From contig RXJH01000004.1 in assembly GCA_003987725.1 (NCBI GenBank), positions 365,372-429,371 of the forward strand: a stretch of DNA of 64,000 bases, written 5' to 3'. Numbering within the stretch: position 1 is the first letter of the stretch; each line of letters opens with the position of its first letter. Position numbers and translations under genes: made by a program. Shown here piece after piece: positions 8,869 to 63,403 of this stretch. The notes under the pieces were generated by a model that was given only the letters and a program-made list of their open reading frames with translations, did not search any database and was not told the origin of the DNA. Source of the stretch: Hyphomicrobium sp. Lineage in GTDB: Bacteria; Pseudomonadota; Alphaproteobacteria; Rhizobiales; Hyphomicrobiaceae.

Positions 8869-9459
8869 TTAAAACGGCTGAACGATCTGACCGACGATGG
8901 GGGTCGAGTCCGGCTTCGGGTCGTAGCGGAAATCCAGGATCAGATTGAAGACGTTTTGCGGCCAGAAGGCAGGATAGCTGCCTTCGCGGGCGCCGAGGAG
9001 TGACGCGATCTCCGGCAGCTTCTTATGGTGCCAGCAGATCACGATCATCTTCCCGCGATACTCGGGCTTCGAAAAAATTTCGGTGATGAGACTTTTGAAG
9101 TCCCTGTCTTCGATGTGATGCTGCACCTCGATGTTGAGTGCGGCGGCGAGCGGTTTCACCGTTTCGATCGAGCGGATCGAACGTTTTGAGCGGGCGGCCG
9201 CGTAAATGAAATCGGGCCGTCCGAACGTCTGAGGAATGTACGTTACAAGGCGCGCTGCGCGTGCGACCCCTTCCGGAGAAAGCAGGATATCGTTCGGGTC
9301 ACCCGTTTTCTCGGCATGGCGCATCAGCAGGATGCGGCCCGGCGCGCCCTCGGGGTGGTGTGTGGCCGTTATTTCTTCCGAAGCGGTCAGCCCCAACGAA
9401 CGGGCGAGCGCGCACAGCCATGCTTTCATGCCGCGATCCGGCTCACCAGAATTTTTCAA
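8869..9459 (-). CDS. Histidine phosphatase family protein (cytoplasmic copy)
   Basis: A 196-residue branch-2-like phosphoglycerate-mutase-fold protein. The catalytic motif is LLMRHAEKTGDPND near residue 44; ARSKRSIRSIETVKPL gives the second arginine region and VICWHHKKLPEIA the distal histidine. It is about half identical to its neighbour at 9577, with the same end block NLILD-YDP----P-V--I-PF. The start is a TTG preceded by AAGGGG; an ATG ten codons in is the alternative. No signal peptide is evident. Substrate unknown. Confidence 0.82.
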   Translation of the reverse strand: MKNSGEPDRGMKAWLCALARSLGLTASEEITATHHPEGAPGRILLMRHAEKTGDPNDILLSPEGVARAARLVTYIPQTFGRPDFIYAAARSKRSIRSIETVKPLAAALNIEVQHHIEDRDFKSLITEIFSKPEYRGKMIVICWHHKKLPEIASLLGAREGSYPAFWPQNVFNLILDFRYDPKPDSTPIVGQIVQPF

Positions 9460-9576: not shown

Positions 9577-10275
9577 TCAAAACGGTTCGATGACGCGGTT
9601 GACCGTCGGGGCGCTACCCGAGTTCGGATCGTATTGCAAATCGAGAATGAGGTTATAGGCATCGTCCGGCCATGGGTCCGGATAGCTGCCAGCGGGGGCG
9701 CCCAGCAACGTTGCGATTGCGGGCAAGGATCCATGATGCCAGCAGATGACGACCGTTTTGCCCTTGTAGTCGGGGTCGTTGAAAATCATATCGGCCAGAT
9801 CTTCGATTTCGTCTTTTTCCATATTGTCGTCGACCTTCATTCCGAGCGCATCGGCGAGCGGTTGAACCGTTTCTCTCGGTCGGTCCGAATGTTTCGAGCG
9901 GGCAGTCGCGATGATGAAATCGGGTTTGCCGAAGGTTTGCGGAATGTAGGTCGCCAGATGTTCCGCGCGTACCTGCCCGGCTTCAGATAGATCTTCGTCG
10001 CCGTCATCGCCGGTCTTGTCGGCATGACGCATCAGGATGATGCGCTTCGGGCCGCCGAGAAAGTGTTCGACGGGCGCATAATCGGAGGCCTTCTCACGAA
10101 CCTTGATGCAAAGGGCACACGGCGGCCGGTTCTCCAGCTTCTGCATTCCAGCGGCGAGGAGATCCATGGAGGCAGCGGCGCCGGGAGGCTCGAGGAGGAT
10201 CGCTATCGACGCGACACTTGCGAGAAAAAGGGCTGCGGTCGCGGAGCGCCGGAAAAGAACAGAGACGCGTTTCAT
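9577..10275 (-). CDS. Histidine phosphatase family protein (exported copy)
   Basis: A 232-residue protein with an N-terminal signal peptide (KRVSVLFRRSATAALFLASVA) followed by a short cysteine pair PPCALCIKV. The phosphatase core starts IILMRHADKTGDDGD; ARSKHSDRPRETVQPLADAL and VICWHHGSLPAIATLL supply the remaining active-site positions. It shares its whole core with the adjacent gene at 8869. The signal peptide places this copy in the periplasm, whereas the neighbour appears cytoplasmic. A tandem duplication followed by a change of location is the simplest reading. Confidence 0.83.
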   Translation of the reverse strand: MKRVSVLFRRSATAALFLASVASIAILLEPPGAAASMDLLAAGMQKLENRPPCALCIKVREKASDYAPVEHFLGGPKRIILMRHADKTGDDGDEDLSEAGQVRAEHLATYIPQTFGKPDFIIATARSKHSDRPRETVQPLADALGMKVDDNMEKDEIEDLADMIFNDPDYKGKTVVICWHHGSLPAIATLLGAPAGSYPDPWPDDAYNLILDLQYDPNSGSAPTVNRVIEPF

Positions 10276-11516: not shown

Positions 11517-12095
11517 TTACGCAGCGAGCACTGCGCGCTCGTGCTTTCCTTCCTCGATCTCTTCGATGATCTTGGCGACAAAGGCTTCGAGATCGCCGGG
11601 ATTGCGGCTCGTGACGATGCCCTCTTCGGCCACGACGGGCTCATCGACCCAGTTGGCACCGGCATTGATCATGTCCGTCTTGATCGAATTGTATGACGTG
11701 GCCTTGCGTCCGCGAACGGCTTTGGCCTCGATCAACAGCCACGGAGCGTGGCAGATGGCGGCGACGACTTTGCCGTCGGCGAGAAAGGCCTTGATGAGCT
11801 TCATCGCGTCCGCGTTCTGGCGAAGCGTGTCCGGATTCATCTGGCCGCCTGGCAGTACGATCGCGTCGTAGAGCGAGGTCGATGCGTCGCCGAGTTCCAC
11901 ATCGACCTTAACGGGCTTGCCCCAGTCCTTATTTTCCCAGCCGATGATCGAGTCTTTCTGCTTGCGATCTTTCGGCGCGGCGACATGGACAAGCTGCGCC
12001 ACCGCTTTCAGCTTCTCGCGCGGAACGTCAAGTTCCGACTGCTCGAAACCGTCGGTCGCGAGAATGAGAATTTTCGCTTTCGAGATCTTTGGCAT
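11517..12095 (-). CDS. DJ-1/PfpI family protein
   Basis: A 192-residue member of the class I glutamine-amidotransferase-like superfamily. Motifs are ILILATDGFEQSEL with the conserved acidic residue, IVLPGGQMNPD, and the nucleophile elbow VAAICHAPWLLIEA with Cys-His. These fit the PfpI/YhbO group of stress proteins, often described as proteases or deglycases; which activity applies here is not visible. The ATG at 12095 has GAGGAAC upstream, and the longer frame before it is rejected for lack of homology. Confidence 0.88.
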   Translation of the reverse strand: MPKISKAKILILATDGFEQSELDVPREKLKAVAQLVHVAAPKDRKQKDSIIGWENKDWGKPVKVDVELGDASTSLYDAIVLPGGQMNPDTLRQNADAMKLIKAFLADGKVVAAICHAPWLLIEAKAVRGRKATSYNSIKTDMINAGANWVDEPVVAEEGIVTSRNPGDLEAFVAKIIEEIEEGKHERAVLAA

Positions 12096-12197: not shown

Positions 12198-12491
12198 TTA
12201 CACCATTTTCCCAAGGATCCTCGTCATTTCGTCCAATGAAAAGGCGCGCAGCGTTTGCGTTCGAATGCTCCCGCGTGCAGAAACGCTTAACGAAAAAGCT
12301 GTGGCCGACTCATCGTCTGGTGCCTCGCAGATAGAGACGGCGTCGAATCGGCCGATCGTCCAATACATGTGTTTGACCGTGACGCTTGCGTTCGCAGCCA
12401 TTGCTTTGAACTTGTCGGCACGGTTTATGGTGTCCTTGGCGTCGTGAATGCCTTTGTCCGTGAAGTTGGCAAGAATGACATACGTTGCCAT
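12198..12491 (-). CDS. GYD-domain protein
   Basis: A 97-residue protein starting MATYVILANFTDKGI, with YWTIGRFDAVSICEAPDDESA, the usual GYD-family core (an alpha/beta ferredoxin-like fold), although the GYD tripeptide reads GRFDAV here. The family is widespread, small and of unknown function. It lies upstream, in the same direction, of the PfpI-like gene with a gap of about 100 bases, so the two may be cotranscribed. Confidence 0.8.
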   Translation of the reverse strand: MATYVILANFTDKGIHDAKDTINRADKFKAMAANASVTVKHMYWTIGRFDAVSICEAPDDESATAFSLSVSARGSIRTQTLRAFSLDEMTRILGKMV

Positions 12492-12575
12492 GAGAGCCTC
12501 CATTGTGGGTGGTGCTCCCCGTTGCCGCGGATGTTAGATCCGCAAGCGGTACAAATGTAGGAAAATCTGCGGCTG

Positions 12576-12690
12576 CTACTGGCCCGGGCGTCCGGTTTTC
12601 TTGGGGCGACCGCGGCGGCCCTTCTTCTCGGAGCCGCCCCTATATTCGCGGGTCCGCGTCGGCATCGTGATGCGTGAGGGCTTTTCGCCG
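12576..12690 (-). pseudogene. Detached copy of the uvrB 3' end
   Basis: A 115-bp segment that repeats the last 115 bases of uvrB (13394-13508) with ten mismatches and no gap. Its reading frame is still intact and encodes [15 protein letters not shown], then a [16 protein letters not shown] tail and a TAG. About half of the mismatches are synonymous. It follows the dioxygenase stop codon in the same frame. See findings for the interpretation. Confidence 0.85.
12576..12690. repeat. Direct repeat, distal copy (uvrB 3' end)
   Basis: Pairs with the direct repeat at 13394-13508. The 703 bases between the two copies are almost exactly the dioxygenase-like gene. Confidence 0.85.
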
Positions 12691-12695
12691 CTTAG

Positions 12696-13388
12696 TTAAA
12701 TCCCGGCCCACCTCAACGGAGAGGGCAAATCATTGGCCGCGTAATCGACCATCAATAGTCTCCGGCGGCCTTGGCTGTGAGAAGCATAGGAGGCATGCAC
12801 GATTGCGGTTGCGCAAATCCAAACGTCACCAGGTTCGGCCAAGCACGTAACCTCTGGGGATTGTGCAATGACTTTTGGTATTGCGTCAGTGGGGATGCGG
12901 CCTTTCCGATGCGATCCTGGAGCGACACGCAACGGGCCGTTGTCGTTTCGGCATGGATCAAGGTAGGCGCGGAGCGTGATCATACCCTCAATGTATGAGA
13001 AGGGTGGCTCGACATGGATGGCGCCCGACTTCGTCGTCCAAGGGCCAAAGCCAGGCATATCGATCTTTTCGCGAACGACGATTGTCCGGTCTTGATGCCA
13101 ACCGAGCGCCCAGTTGGTTTTAGCGTTCTTGTCGAAGAAGACCGCGCGTACGGCACGCGCATTGTTTCCTAACCTGGTCGTAGCAAGTCGATCGAACGTG
13201 CGACCGCACGAAAGAAGCTTTCGCACCGTTTCATCACCGACGAGGCGAGAGCCCGGCGCGCCGTTTCGCTGACGTTCTGCAAGCTCAGCAAATTCTTCCA
13301 GTTCAGCGACCGTCAACACATGTTCGACTTTTTCGACGCCATCATTTGAAAGCGATAGTGCATCGGCACTGCGGTTCGGCGCTGTCAT
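12696..13388 (-). CDS. Phytanoyl-CoA dioxygenase (PhyH) family protein
   Basis: A 230-residue Fe(II)/2-oxoglutarate oxygenase-like protein. The metal HxD appears in LGWHQDRT near residue 98, and the distal histidine and 2-oxoglutarate arginine are plausible in IVHASYASHSQGRRRLL; the core PCRNDNGPLRVAPGSH is typical of PhyH. The substrate cannot be told. It starts five bases after the uvrB stop, so it probably depends on uvrB transcription and perhaps translational coupling. It lies between two copies of the uvrB 3' end, which points to insertion into this site. Confidence 0.85.
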   Translation of the reverse strand: MTAPNRSADALSLSNDGVEKVEHVLTVAELEEFAELAERQRNGAPGSRLVGDETVRKLLSCGRTFDRLATTRLGNNARAVRAVFFDKNAKTNWALGWHQDRTIVVREKIDMPGFGPWTTKSGAIHVEPPFSYIEGMITLRAYLDPCRNDNGPLRVAPGSHRKGRIPTDAIPKVIAQSPEVTCLAEPGDVWICATAIVHASYASHSQGRRRLLMVDYAANDLPSPLRWAGI

Positions 13389-13393
13389 TGGTA

Positions 13394-13508
13394 CTACTGG
13401 CCCGGGCGTCCGGTTTTCTTGGGGCGGCCGCGGCGGCCCTTCTTCTCTGAGCTGCCCTCGAATTCGCGGGTCCGCGTTGGCATCGTGATGCGCGACGGCT
13501 TTTCGCCG
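13394..13508. repeat. Direct repeat, proximal copy (end of intact uvrB)
   Basis: The last 115 bases of the functional uvrB gene, repeated with ten mismatches at 12576-12690. Confidence 0.85.
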
Positions 13509-16300
13509 GACTTCACGGGCAGCGAGGCGTGCGGGCCCATTTCATCGAGCGTCGGCTTGTGGGGGCCTGCGATTTTCTCGCCGAACGCACCGGCCTTCAC
13601 GCGGCTATCGACATGCTGGGTGCGTGCCGGGACAGGACGGTCGGTGCCCGGTCCCATGTCGTCAAGCGACGGCTTCTTGATGCGAGAGGTCGACTGCGCG
13701 TACGTCGGCTGCACCGGCTCGTATTCCGTCGCAATGCGGCTGCCTTCCGATTTCGGCGGAGGTACGTTGGCGCTCGCTCCGTATTTGCGCGCGCCTTTGA
13801 AACTCCCGGCCTTGTCCTCGATCTCCGACTGCCGTGCCAACGGATCATCGGCGATGGCGAGTTCGGTTTCGCGCAGGCGCTTGATCTCGTCGCGCAATCT
13901 CGCGGCCGTTTCGAATTCGAGATCGGCGGCGGCTTCCTTCATGCGCCGTTCCATGTCGGCGATGACGGCTTGCAGGTTGTGACCGAGCACCTGGACATTC
14001 TCGCCATCGGCGAGACCGGCGTCGACGGTGACGTGATCCTGCTCGTAGACCGATTGCATGACGTCGGCGATGTTCTTCTTCACGCTTTCCGGCGTGATGC
14101 CGTTGGCCTCGTTCCACGCGAGCTGCTTTTCGCGGCGGCGGTTGGTTTCGGCCATGGCGCGTTCCATGGAGCCGGTGACCTGATCGGCGTAGAGAATGAC
14201 CTTGCCATCGACGTTGCGGGCCGCACGGCCGATCGTCTGCACGAGCGACGTCTCGGAGCGCAGGAAACCTTCCTTGTCGGCATCGAGAATGGCGACGAGG
14301 GCGCACTCGGGAATGTCGAGGCCTTCGCGCAGGAGGTTGATGCCGATCAGCACGTCGAAGGCGCCGAGGCGCAGATCGCGGATGATCTCGATGCGCTCCA
14401 GCGTCTCGATGTCGGAGTGCATGTAGCGGACGCGGACGCCGTTCTCGTGCATGTATTCGGTCAGATCTTCGGCCATGCGCTTTGTCAGCACGGTGACGAG
14501 CGTCCGATAGCCCTTCTTCGAGACCTGGCGCACCTCGTCGAGCAGATCATCGACCTGCGATTTCGCGGGGCGCATTTCGACGACGGGATCGATCAGGCCG
14601 GTGGGGCGGATGACCTGCTCGGCGAACGAGCCGCCCGTCTGCTCGAGTTCCCAACTTGCTGGCGTCGCGGAAACGAAAACGGATTGCGGACGCATCGCGT
14701 CCCATTCCTCGAAGCGCAGCGGCCGGTTGTCCATGCAGGAGGGTAGGCGGAAGCCATACTCGGCAAGCGTTGCCTTACGCCGGAAGTCGCCGCGGAACAT
14801 GCCGCCGATCTGTGGCACGGTCACATGGCTTTCGTCGGCAAAGACGAGGGCGTTATCGGGCAGATATTCGAAGAGCGTCGGCGGCGGATCGCCGGGATTG
14901 CGGCCCGTCAGATAGCGCGAATAGTTCTCGATGCCAGCGCATGAGCCTGTCGCTTCCATCATTTCCATGTCGAAGGTCGTGCGTTGCTCGAGGCGCTGGG
15001 CTTCGAGAAGCTTGCCTGAGGCATAGAGTTCGTCGAGGCGCTGTTTCAACTCGATCTTGATCGACTTGATGGCCTGCTGCAGCGTCGGCTTCGGCGTGAC
15101 GTAGTGCGAATTTGCGTAGAGCTTTACGAGTGCCAATTCGTCCGTCTTGTTGCCCGTAAGCGGATCGAATTCGACGATCGACTCGATCTCGTCGCCGAAC
15201 AGCGAGAAACGCCAAGCCCGATCTTCTAAGTGGGCCGGGAAGACTTCGACGGTGTCGCCGCGTGCGCGGAAGGAACCACGGACGAAATTCTGATCGTTGC
15301 GCCGGTAGTGAAGGGCGACGAGGTCAGCCAGCAGCTGGTCGCGCGAGAGCTGTTCGCCGACGCGCACGGTGAACGTCATCGCAGTGTAGGTTTCGACCGA
15401 GCCGATACCGTAGATGCACGACACCGACGCGACGATGATCACGTCATCGCGTTCGAGAAGGGAACGCGTCGCGGCGTGGCGCATACGGTCGATCTGTTCG
15501 TTGATCGACGCTTCCTTCTCGATGTAGGTGTCCGTGCGCGGCACGTAGGCTTCGGGCTGGTAGTAATCGTAATACGAGACGAAGTATTCGACCGCATTTT
15601 CGGGGAAGAAGCTTTTGAACTCCCCGTAGAGCTGGGCCGCGAGCGTCTTGTTCGGCGCGAGGATGAGCGCGGGGCGCTGGGTCTTCTCGATGACGTGCGC
15701 CATCGTGAACGTCTTGCCGGACCCCGTTACGCCGAGCAGCACCTGATTGTGCTCGTGCATGCCCACGCCTTCGACGAGTTCCGTGATGGCTTGCGGCTGA
15801 TCGCCTTTCGGCTCGTAGTCCGAGACGATCTTGAACCTGACGCCGCCTTCGCTTTTCTCGGGGCGGTCCGGCCGATGCGGAACGAACGTCGGCATGCCGC
15901 CCGAGACGATCGGGTGGGTCGCCATGAGCGGCTGCCGGGATAGAAGTTCTTTCGCCCGTTCGGAGCGCTCCTGCGGCTTGGTCAGGAGTGCGGTAAGGCT
16001 ATCTGTCAGGCTTTCGCCGCACATCGGCGGGCGCGGTCCGGACTGACGAAGCGCAGGGAGACTCGGAAGTCCCGTCGCTCCGCGTTTCGTCGAAAGGTCC
16101 GCCGGTGCGAAATAGGAACCCGCTTCTCCGAATCCCGGCGTTCCGGCCTCAGTCTCCATCGGAGGCTGAGTCGGCTTTCCCGATTTGCCACGGGAAGGAC
16201 GAGGTGTTTTCGGTCCGGATGATTTTGTCGGTGTTGCCACGGGAGGAATATAGGAAAGAAGGCTTTCGTCATAAATGCCGATTTGGCGCCACAGTGTCAC
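13394..16300 (-). CDS. uvrB: Excinuclease ABC subunit UvrB
   Basis: UvrB, the damage-verifying helicase-like subunit of nucleotide excision repair. The first 150 residues are a Pro/Ser/Lys-rich extension, so the true start may be internal; no candidate has a good ribosome site. The core begins [17 protein letters not shown], with Walker [13 protein letters not shown], the beta-hairpin region [21 protein letters not shown], the motif [12 protein letters not shown], and motif [11 protein letters not shown]. The UVR domain is at [20 protein letters not shown] tail of about 140 residues follows, with two similar blocks ([10 protein letters not shown] and [10 protein letters not shown]) and a basic [13 protein letters not shown] end. 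Confidence 0.96.
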
Positions 16301-62206: not shown

Positions 62207-63403
62207 TTGCGTGCGCGCATACGTGCCGTCTTTCAGAGAAGGTGGGTGCTGACCGTGCCCTTCGGACTTGTTCTGTCCCTCCTCTTTCACGCTGCGCTCC
62301 TCGGGTGGGCGCTTTTTTCCATGCCTGTGGCACCGCCGCTCTCACCAGATACGCCGGCGATCTCGGCGGATATCATCACCCCGTCCGAGTTCCTGCGCCT
62401 GAAGCAGGGGAGCGAGGACTCGAAGAATCTCGAGACGAAGGCGAACGATCAGCCGAAGCCCGACGACAGCAAGAACGATACGCCGAAGCCGGCGAACGCC
62501 CCGCCGCCGCCACCGCCGCCAGCGGAAGAGCAGGTCGCCAAGGCCGAGCCGCCACCCGAGCCTGAGCCGCCTCAGGCCGCCGAGCCTCCGCCTCCGCCGC
62601 CACCGCCGGCGAAGACCGAGCCCGATCCGATAGCCAAGAAGATCGACGAGCCTCCGCCGCCGCCGGAGCCTCAGCCCGGTCCGACGCCAGACGAGAAAAA
62701 GCTTCTCGAGCAAAAGCTTGAGCAGGAGCGTCAAGCCGAAGAAGCGAAGAAGAAGGCCGAGGAAGAGGCCAAGAAAAAAGCCGAGGCGGAAGCCAAGAAG
62801 AAGGCCGAAGACGAAGCAAAAAAGAAAGCGGAAGAAGAGGCGAAAAAGAAGAAGGCCGCCGAGCTCAAGAAGAAGAAACAGGAAGAGGCCAAGAAGAAAG
62901 CCGAAGCCGCGAAGAAGCAGTTCGATCCGAGCAAGATCGCGTCTCTTCTCGAAAAGTCGCCGGACGACGCAACGCCGAAGGCTCTTCTCGACAAGGACAA
63001 GAAAAAGAAGGGGCAGCAGGCGTCGGGCTCAAGCTCGACTTCGACCAACTTCGGCAAGGAAGCGGGGACGCAGACCGGTTCCGATACCGTCCTTTCGGCG
63101 CGCGAGCAGGATCTCTTGAAGGGGATGCTGAAGTCGCAGCTCAACGGCTGCTGGCGGCCGCCCGGTACGGGTGGCGGCAGCGAGGTTCCGGTCGTCGAGC
63201 TTCATTGGGAGCTGAATGCCGACGGCACGCTCGCCGGTGAGCCGCGCGTCACGTCCGCGCCATCGACGACGGCTGGACAGGTTTATGCCGAAGCCGCACT
63301 CAGAGCTGTCAGGATGTGCGCGCCGTTTCGATTGCCTCCGGACAAGTACGAAGGCGGGTGGAAGATCATCGACTGGACTTTCGATCCGCGTGAAATGTTG
63401 TAA
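62207..63403 (+). CDS. tolA: Tol-Pal system protein TolA (possibly truncated at the start)
   Basis: A 398-residue TolA. One membrane helix (FGLVLSLLFHAALLGWALF) is followed by Pro/Glu/Lys-rich runs, a long charged Ala/Lys/Glu helix (about 165-240) and a C-terminal domain III with CWRPPGTGG and AALRAVRMCAPFRLP. It links TolQR in the inner membrane to TolB-Pal in the periplasm. The only available in-frame start is the TTG at 62207, with no ribosome site; the coding frame seems to continue upstream, so a frameshift is suspected. Confidence 0.9.
   Translation: MRARIRAVFQRRWVLTVPFGLVLSLLFHAALLGWALFSMPVAPPLSPDTPAISADIITPSEFLRLKQGSEDSKNLETKANDQPKPDDSKNDTPKPANAPPPPPPPAEEQVAKAEPPPEPEPPQAAEPPPPPPPPAKTEPDPIAKKIDEPPPPPEPQPGPTPDEKKLLEQKLEQERQAEEAKKKAEEEAKKKAEAEAKKKAEDEAKKKAEEEAKKKKAAELKKKKQEEAKKKAEAAKKQFDPSKIASLLEKSPDDATPKALLDKDKKKKGQQASGSSSTSTNFGKEAGTQTGSDTVLSAREQDLLKGMLKSQLNGCWRPPGTGGGSEVPVVELHWELNADGTLAGEPRVTSAPSTTAGQVYAEAALRAVRMCAPFRLPPDKYEGGWKIIDWTFDPREML

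Follow-up and report, generated by a model that had tools for sequence, protein, structure and literature searches.

Across the bacterial family studied here, the 3′ end of uvrB may well be a site where single accessory genes settle again and again, and each of them would bring along its own version of that end. In the window, by which we mean the whole 64-kb stretch of DNA analysed here (from genome G000 in our numbering), a single dioxygenase gene lies between the intact end of uvrB and a displaced second copy of that end. The arrangement recurs with other cargo in relatives and is more general than the single case of the window. Sites of frequent gene gain that lack mobile-element genes are already known, but the way in which single genes enter them can seldom be seen. 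A displaced gene end records where a gene came in, in which direction, and in what order the events took place, and such scars can be counted in public genomes. Should this reading be correct, the uvrB tail would offer a defined place to ask whether genes are added singly by ordinary recombination or by an unseen recombinase, the genes so added next to a repair gene including toxin–antitoxin-like and TIR-domain genes. Among the papers listed by searches of the open-licence PMC literature, judged by titles and abstract openings, none deals with the 3′ end of uvrB.

The window contains the terminal 115 nt of uvrB as two direct copies, at 12576–12690 and 13394–13508, which differ by ten mismatches (91% identity) and match far above chance (E 9.7e-44), confirming a duplication that the original prediction had described. 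As had likewise been proposed, the 703 nt that separate the copies consist of a dioxygenase gene, here phyH, with 5 nt on either side, and Pfam places the product in the PhyH family. The features of the locus are as follows.

13394–16300, minus strand: uvrB, 968 aa, listed with a GTG start; the residues beyond 811 form a C-terminal extension (NCBIfam)
13394–13508, minus strand: proximal uvrB-tail copy, the end of the intact gene, stop codon at 13394–13396 (repeat alignment)
13389–13393, minus strand: 5-nt leader from the uvrB stop to the phyH start, TACCA on the minus strand; G020 has GACCA
12696–13388, minus strand: cargo gene phyH, PhyH family (phytanoyl-CoA dioxygenase-like), 230 aa (Pfam PF05721, 54.1 bits against a cut-off of 22)
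12691–12695, minus strand: 5-nt trailer from the phyH stop to the displaced tail, CTAAG on the minus strand; CTAA is common to G020
12576–12690, minus strand: distal, displaced uvrB-tail copy, an open frame ending in TAG (repeat alignment)
12504–12575, minus strand: resident flank, found directly after uvrB in the empty-site relative G014 (comparison with G014)
12198–12503, minus strand: resident downstream gene, GYD-domain protein, 101 aa (Pfam PF08734)

The uvrB-tail pair and a short-period array at 62741–62929 are the only direct repeats of at least 40 nt in the window, and a search of the whole genome found these two copies of the tail and no others. The identity of the 968-aa UvrB was confirmed by NCBIfam; the canonical UvrB model stops at residue 811, and both tail copies lie inside the C-terminal extension past this point. 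The distal copy retains an open frame to TAG, and its ten changes comprise five silent ones and five within three replaced codons, in agreement with the earlier statement that about half of them are synonymous. It also has good matches to uvrB genes of other genomes. Between positions 12000 and 13700, Rfam gave no match and no sigma-70-type promoters were found.

Strains that lack the dioxygenase, as anticipated, do exist. The closest relative, G014 (95% identity in uvrB), carries no insert, and the sites of G006, G016, and G003 are also empty. Because uvrB of G014 joins the flank that follows the distal copy in the window, base 1 to base 1 and with 93.5% identity over 1500 nt, the distal copy stands at the former uvrB end. 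The GYD-domain gene likewise adjoins uvrB in G014, G006, G016, G003, and G012. By contrast with a structure common to all relatives, phyH (E ≤ 1e-10) together with the repeat is present in only 2 of the 22 genomes of the genus, namely, that of the window and G020. In both, phyH sits at the uvrB stop with an identical 5-nt spacing, and the last bases of the phyH module are identical (CTAA) despite displaced tails of unequal length, 115 versus 48 nt. The detached tail of G020 comprises 48 nt plus 5 nt, GACCA, which also follow its proximal stop.

The two copies in the window may have had a composite history. A clade A, with G000, G014, and G006, and a clade B, with G020, G016, and G003, are recovered both by a uvrB tree of 20 genomes and by a 19-genome tree of an aminotransferase gene that was named by eye. 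Only two sites within the 115 nt tell these clades apart; at each of them the proximal copy agrees with clade A and the distal copy with clade B, and the flank past the distal stop is of type A. Although they are only two, these sites suggest that the distal copy is perhaps a mosaic and not purely the old uvrB end. They would fit a crossover in the interval from about 68 nt before the stop to the stop itself, with a B-like tail on the incoming DNA. One of them sits in a cluster of four changes, and the outgroup G008 has the B state at the other. Against G014, uvrB of the window is 93–97% identical right up to the stop, and 150-nt windows along the gene revealed no foreign tract outside the tail.

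The cargo itself has a separate history. The HxD…H metal triad and the 2-oxoglutarate arginine constitute the motif of Fe(II)/2-oxoglutarate dioxygenases. In an alignment of eight sequences, two of which come from the genus of the window, residues H98, D100, H198, and R208–R210 of PhyH never vary. An enzyme with Fe(II)/2-oxoglutarate activity would be expected to show this pattern, and such activity is predicted. Between the window and G020, phyH shows a dN of 0.044 against a dS of 0.29, a difference that reveals purifying selection. The same dS of 0.29 (bootstrap 0.21–0.39) is about half that of uvrB in this pair of carriers (0.63, bootstrap 0.54–0.73, a range that does not overlap that of phyH) and lies below those of six further genes (0.55–0.88). 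By this measure, phyH is shown to have diverged later than the split of its two carrier species, and its third-position GC is low (0.576 vs. 0.65–0.80). The gene was therefore acquired horizontally by the window's genome, by G020, or by both. Outside the genus, relatives of phyH reach at most 59% identity. A search of viral contigs yielded no relative and one of phages no match, a plasmid search gave six records, each below 60% identity, and a solved-structure search gave two weak matches. The original prediction had envisaged the import of a uvrB end together with one gene, with the old 3′ end left behind. The flank of G014, the empty sites, and the younger phyH all support the import, whereas the notion of a purely resident distal copy is weakened by its possibly mosaic nature.

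How general this arrangement is was assessed with uvrB ends and up to ~6 kb of downstream DNA from 84 of 103 family genomes, the other 19 having no located tail, a contig edge, or no entry in the input set. Among the 84, downstream DNA reached at least 60 nt in 83, at least 200 nt in 82, and at least 5.9 kb in 71. Searches of the family with the UvrB tail brought up the arrangement in genomes other than that of the window. When the last 300 nt of uvrB were compared with the downstream DNA of 83 genomes, same-strand copies of the extreme tail were detected in 10 at E ≤ 1e-4 (G067 counted), and a weight-matrix scan of 82 genomes found a 24-mer above 12 bits on the gene strand in 12, the reverse-strand maximum being 7.4 bits. 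We accepted as carriers 11 genomes from seven genera, with 12 inserts at the uvrB stop that are followed by displaced tails of ~19–139 nt. G066 has two such tails in series; G081 was accepted on synteny, its 24-mer score of 6.6 lying below the reverse-strand maximum of 7.4. For the analysis of frames, gaps, and attC sites, the tail starts of G081, G091, and G094 were set by eye, and the 139 nt given for G091, also set by eye, become 123 nt without the gapped part. In accepted cases besides G020, the repeat ends at the stop codon or within 1 nt of it.

A number of candidates were set aside. G067 was left out for its low profile score and a gapped alignment of 75% identity; in G044, G042, G041, G052, and G026 a 24-mer score above 7.4 was the sole support. 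Artefacts account for G042 (two contigs that overlap by exactly 141 identical bases), G071 (an inverted copy at a contig edge), and G047 (whose second uvrB end lies on a contig of 3194 bp); several tails with short frames proved to be contig edges, and the match in G096 lies away from the tail end.

Each insert is 0.5–1.9 kb in size and contains one gene or a toxin–antitoxin-like pair, co-directional with uvrB in 12 of 12 upon inspection of the open reading frames. The accepted carriers hold the following cargo.

G000 and G020: PhyH
G025: GNAT acetyltransferase, its frame running into the tail
G054 and G091: small ORF and ParE-like toxin
G064 and G069: uncharacterised protein, with one sub-threshold AbiJ match for G064
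G066: Clp_N-TIR, then glutathione S-transferase, in series
G083: EptA-like sulfatase
G094: cupin-like protein, named by eye
G081: uncharacterised

In the 11 inserts whose cargo has its own stop, 3–163 nt (median 15) separate this stop from the displaced tail. That the distal copy in the window is in frame with the dioxygenase stop, as had been pointed out, is true, but is nothing special: 4 of these 11 inserts are in frame, close to the one-in-three chance, and a role for the relation was rejected; in G025 it is the GNAT frame that enters the tail. The protein of G064 and G069 was found in those 2 of 103 genomes only. ParE-like homologs number 20 in 16 of the 103 genomes, 8 of them within 1.3 kb downstream of uvrB on the same strand, in six genera. 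For these eight, a displaced tail follows the pair only in G054 and G091; in G094 it precedes the pair.

Empty sites are available for some of the other carriers as well. The flank after the displaced copy matches that of another genome from G020 to G003, from G083 to G080, from G081 to G083, and from G069 to G067, a match being either to an uninterrupted relative or to the displaced-end flank of a sister (G000, G020, G069, G081, and G083); comparison of flanks with relatives found no clean empty site for G025, G054, G064, G066, G091, and G094. Most displaced tails are closest to sequences of their own genome or genus, and under an import the donors would therefore have to be near relatives. 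By eye, the displaced copy of G091 resembles the relative G093 more closely than the proximal copy does, which is opposite to the pattern in the window.

Among 438 other long ORFs of the same neighbourhoods, each compared with 3 kb of downstream DNA, there were no displaced tails, and two tail-end matches proved to be tandem paralogs (G003 and G006); these controls are not a matched core-gene set. With 82 genomes (G071 left out), Fisher's test of 10/82 versus 0/438 gives p = 6e-9, or 3e-7 with the two paralogs counted; without G067 (9/82) the values are 4e-8 and 2e-6, respectively. In the window, the minus-strand ORFs at 8869–9459 and 9577–10275 are, by eye, tandem paralogs of the histidine-phosphatase type, and it is the corresponding pair of G003 and G006 that matched in the control.

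The reading that may well account for these findings takes the newcomer to be an accessory gene with its own version of the uvrB end. Recombination within the uvrB tail would yield an intact uvrB end and stop codon with the cargo directly after it, and the older uvrB end would remain downstream as a short direct repeat, of 115 nt in the window. The linked uvrB sequence would act as the anchor for import, for which the cell's homologous recombination would be the simplest agent; recombination between both copies could in turn restore the empty site. In favour of such a hotspot is the turnover of accessory genes beside a core gene, with varied cargo after uvrB in 11 accepted genomes, together with the empty sites, the young phyH, the displaced tails that the control genes lack, the serial inserts of G066, the ParE-like homologs near uvrB, and the two clade-diagnostic sites of the window. 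Against it stand the absence of a common crossover point, tails of 19–48 nt that are short for homologous recombination, a phyH end that G000 and G020 share while their tail lengths differ, the need for near-relative donors, the reverse pattern of G091, the small number of diagnostic sites in the window, and the six carriers for which no clean empty site was found. More broadly, the range of tail lengths (~19–139 nt), the shared phyH end, and the opposite native and foreign patterns in G000 and G091 argue against any single simple mechanism. The mover may be homologous recombination or an unseen recombinase.

Site-specific integration at the 3′ end of uvrB through a recombinase of the tyrosine or serine type, which would create attL and attR, with the inserts as decayed CIME-like remnants or as elements moved in trans, is in our estimate unlikely. 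Repeats that end at or near the stop codon and are confined to the last part of the gene speak for it, as does the possibility of serial insertion, and the outcome works like integration at gene 3′ ends, with the gene restored and the old end displaced. CIMEs are defined as elements that lack genes for integration and transfer yet have attL and attR, and they can stack (PMC5704250). However, the fetched downstream DNA of the 84 genomes, up to ~6 kb, holds no tyrosine integrase frame by a profile that, in a leave-one-out test, recovers 18 of 20 integrases of the family, which bears out the earlier remark that no integrase is seen, as none of the tyrosine type is nearby. In the ten genomes searched more widely, the nearest tyrosine integrase is 68–220 kb off or on another contig, a distance that says little in G025, G083, and G091, where the uvrB contig is short. 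Furthermore, all the inserts are very small and point the same way as uvrB, and in this they differ from large elements in decay. An integrase-less cassette system, in which the uvrB tail would be both entry site and cassette end, with single co-directional genes that enter, leave, and stack while uvrB always stays intact, is on balance an improbable account.

We are equally doubtful of a one-sided homologous import, whereby uvrB homology anchors the incoming DNA and its far end is joined in the resident tail by chance or microhomology. The variable right junctions, the uvrB-linked cargo common to different genera, and the native look of the displaced copy in G091 would suit this process, which is documented in transformable bacteria (PMC6382021). 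It sits poorly with displaced tails that are all at most ~139 nt although uvrB is 2.9 kb long, with the same cargo end in two carriers, and with the two other-clade states of the distal copy in the window; nor was clear microhomology at the junctions seen by eye. Far less credible is a duplication that predates the split of clades A and B and was lost in G014, G006, G016, and G003 through recombination between the repeats. Direct repeats do permit clean loss, and both carriers have the same site and leader, but at least three losses would be needed on the trees, the tails are unequal (115 vs. 48 nt), and the idea is disfavoured by the phyH dS, which is roughly half the uvrB value and whose bootstrap range lies clear of that of uvrB. 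It is also very unlikely that the resident tail was duplicated locally at a staggered break that captured a foreign fragment, in the manner of a long target-site duplication. Displaced tails do mostly resemble their own genome or genus, and the G020 repeat does extend 5 nt past the stop; the other repeats, however, end at or within 1 nt of the stop, where a random break would also have copied downstream DNA.

Several known systems offer parallels to the proposed landing of single genes at the uvrB end. Integrase-less hotspots driven by homologous recombination share the turnover of accessory genes beside a core gene without mobile-element genes, but the uvrB inserts are single genes at the very end of the gene that leave displaced ends, a scar that the accessible portion of that literature does not mention. 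SCC elements enter the 3′ end of orfX/rlmH in staphylococci, stack, and include variants without recombinase genes, and the uvrB inserts are similar in these respects. SCC elements are, however, large and moved by Ccr serine recombinases, whereas none is known for the uvrB inserts. Integron cassettes are single co-directional genes inserted serially, with attC sites that carry RYYYAAC and GTTRRRY core sites. The uvrB inserts resemble them in being single, co-directional, and serially inserted, but their tails are without attC core sites: attC-type cassettes were rejected on finding no core-site pair in the 12 displaced tails and ~140 nt of context, single core motifs occurring only in the tails of G000, G066 (second copy), and G094. 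CIMEs likewise have flanking repeats, one of which restores the host gene end, lack an integrase, and stack, but they derive from ICEs or IMEs, whereas the uvrB inserts, at 0.5–1.9 kb and one gene or pair each, showed no such trace in the integrase search of up to ~6 kb of downstream DNA (PMC5704250). Homology-facilitated illegitimate recombination also joins foreign DNA beside one homologous anchor; the uvrB junctions differ in clustering in the last part of the gene and in a cargo end that recurs (PMC6382021).

Some further observations concern uvrB and its neighbourhood. At the UvrB C-terminus (window 13394–13460), KTGRPG is invariant in 27 aligned family tails; the end of the extension forms what we take to be a hook-like motif. 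The uvrB linker is longer or interrupted in some relatives, at loci L018 (G001), L026 (G002), and L027 (G011), and palindromic CCCTCTCCCC/GGGGAGAGGG repeats occupy part of it, inside the coding region, in G002 and G011. The array at 62741–62929 of the window consists of short-period coding repeats rich in Lys, Glu, and Ala, in eight overlapping copies of 48 nt. In G091 (L089, 4823–4885), tandem 12-nt repeats lie soon after the displaced uvrB tail, within an open frame. Finally, in the genus of G064–G069, small genes after uvrB are reordered between species, as if shuffled, at L137, L108, L138, L161, and L139 of G064, G066, G067, G068, and G069, respectively.
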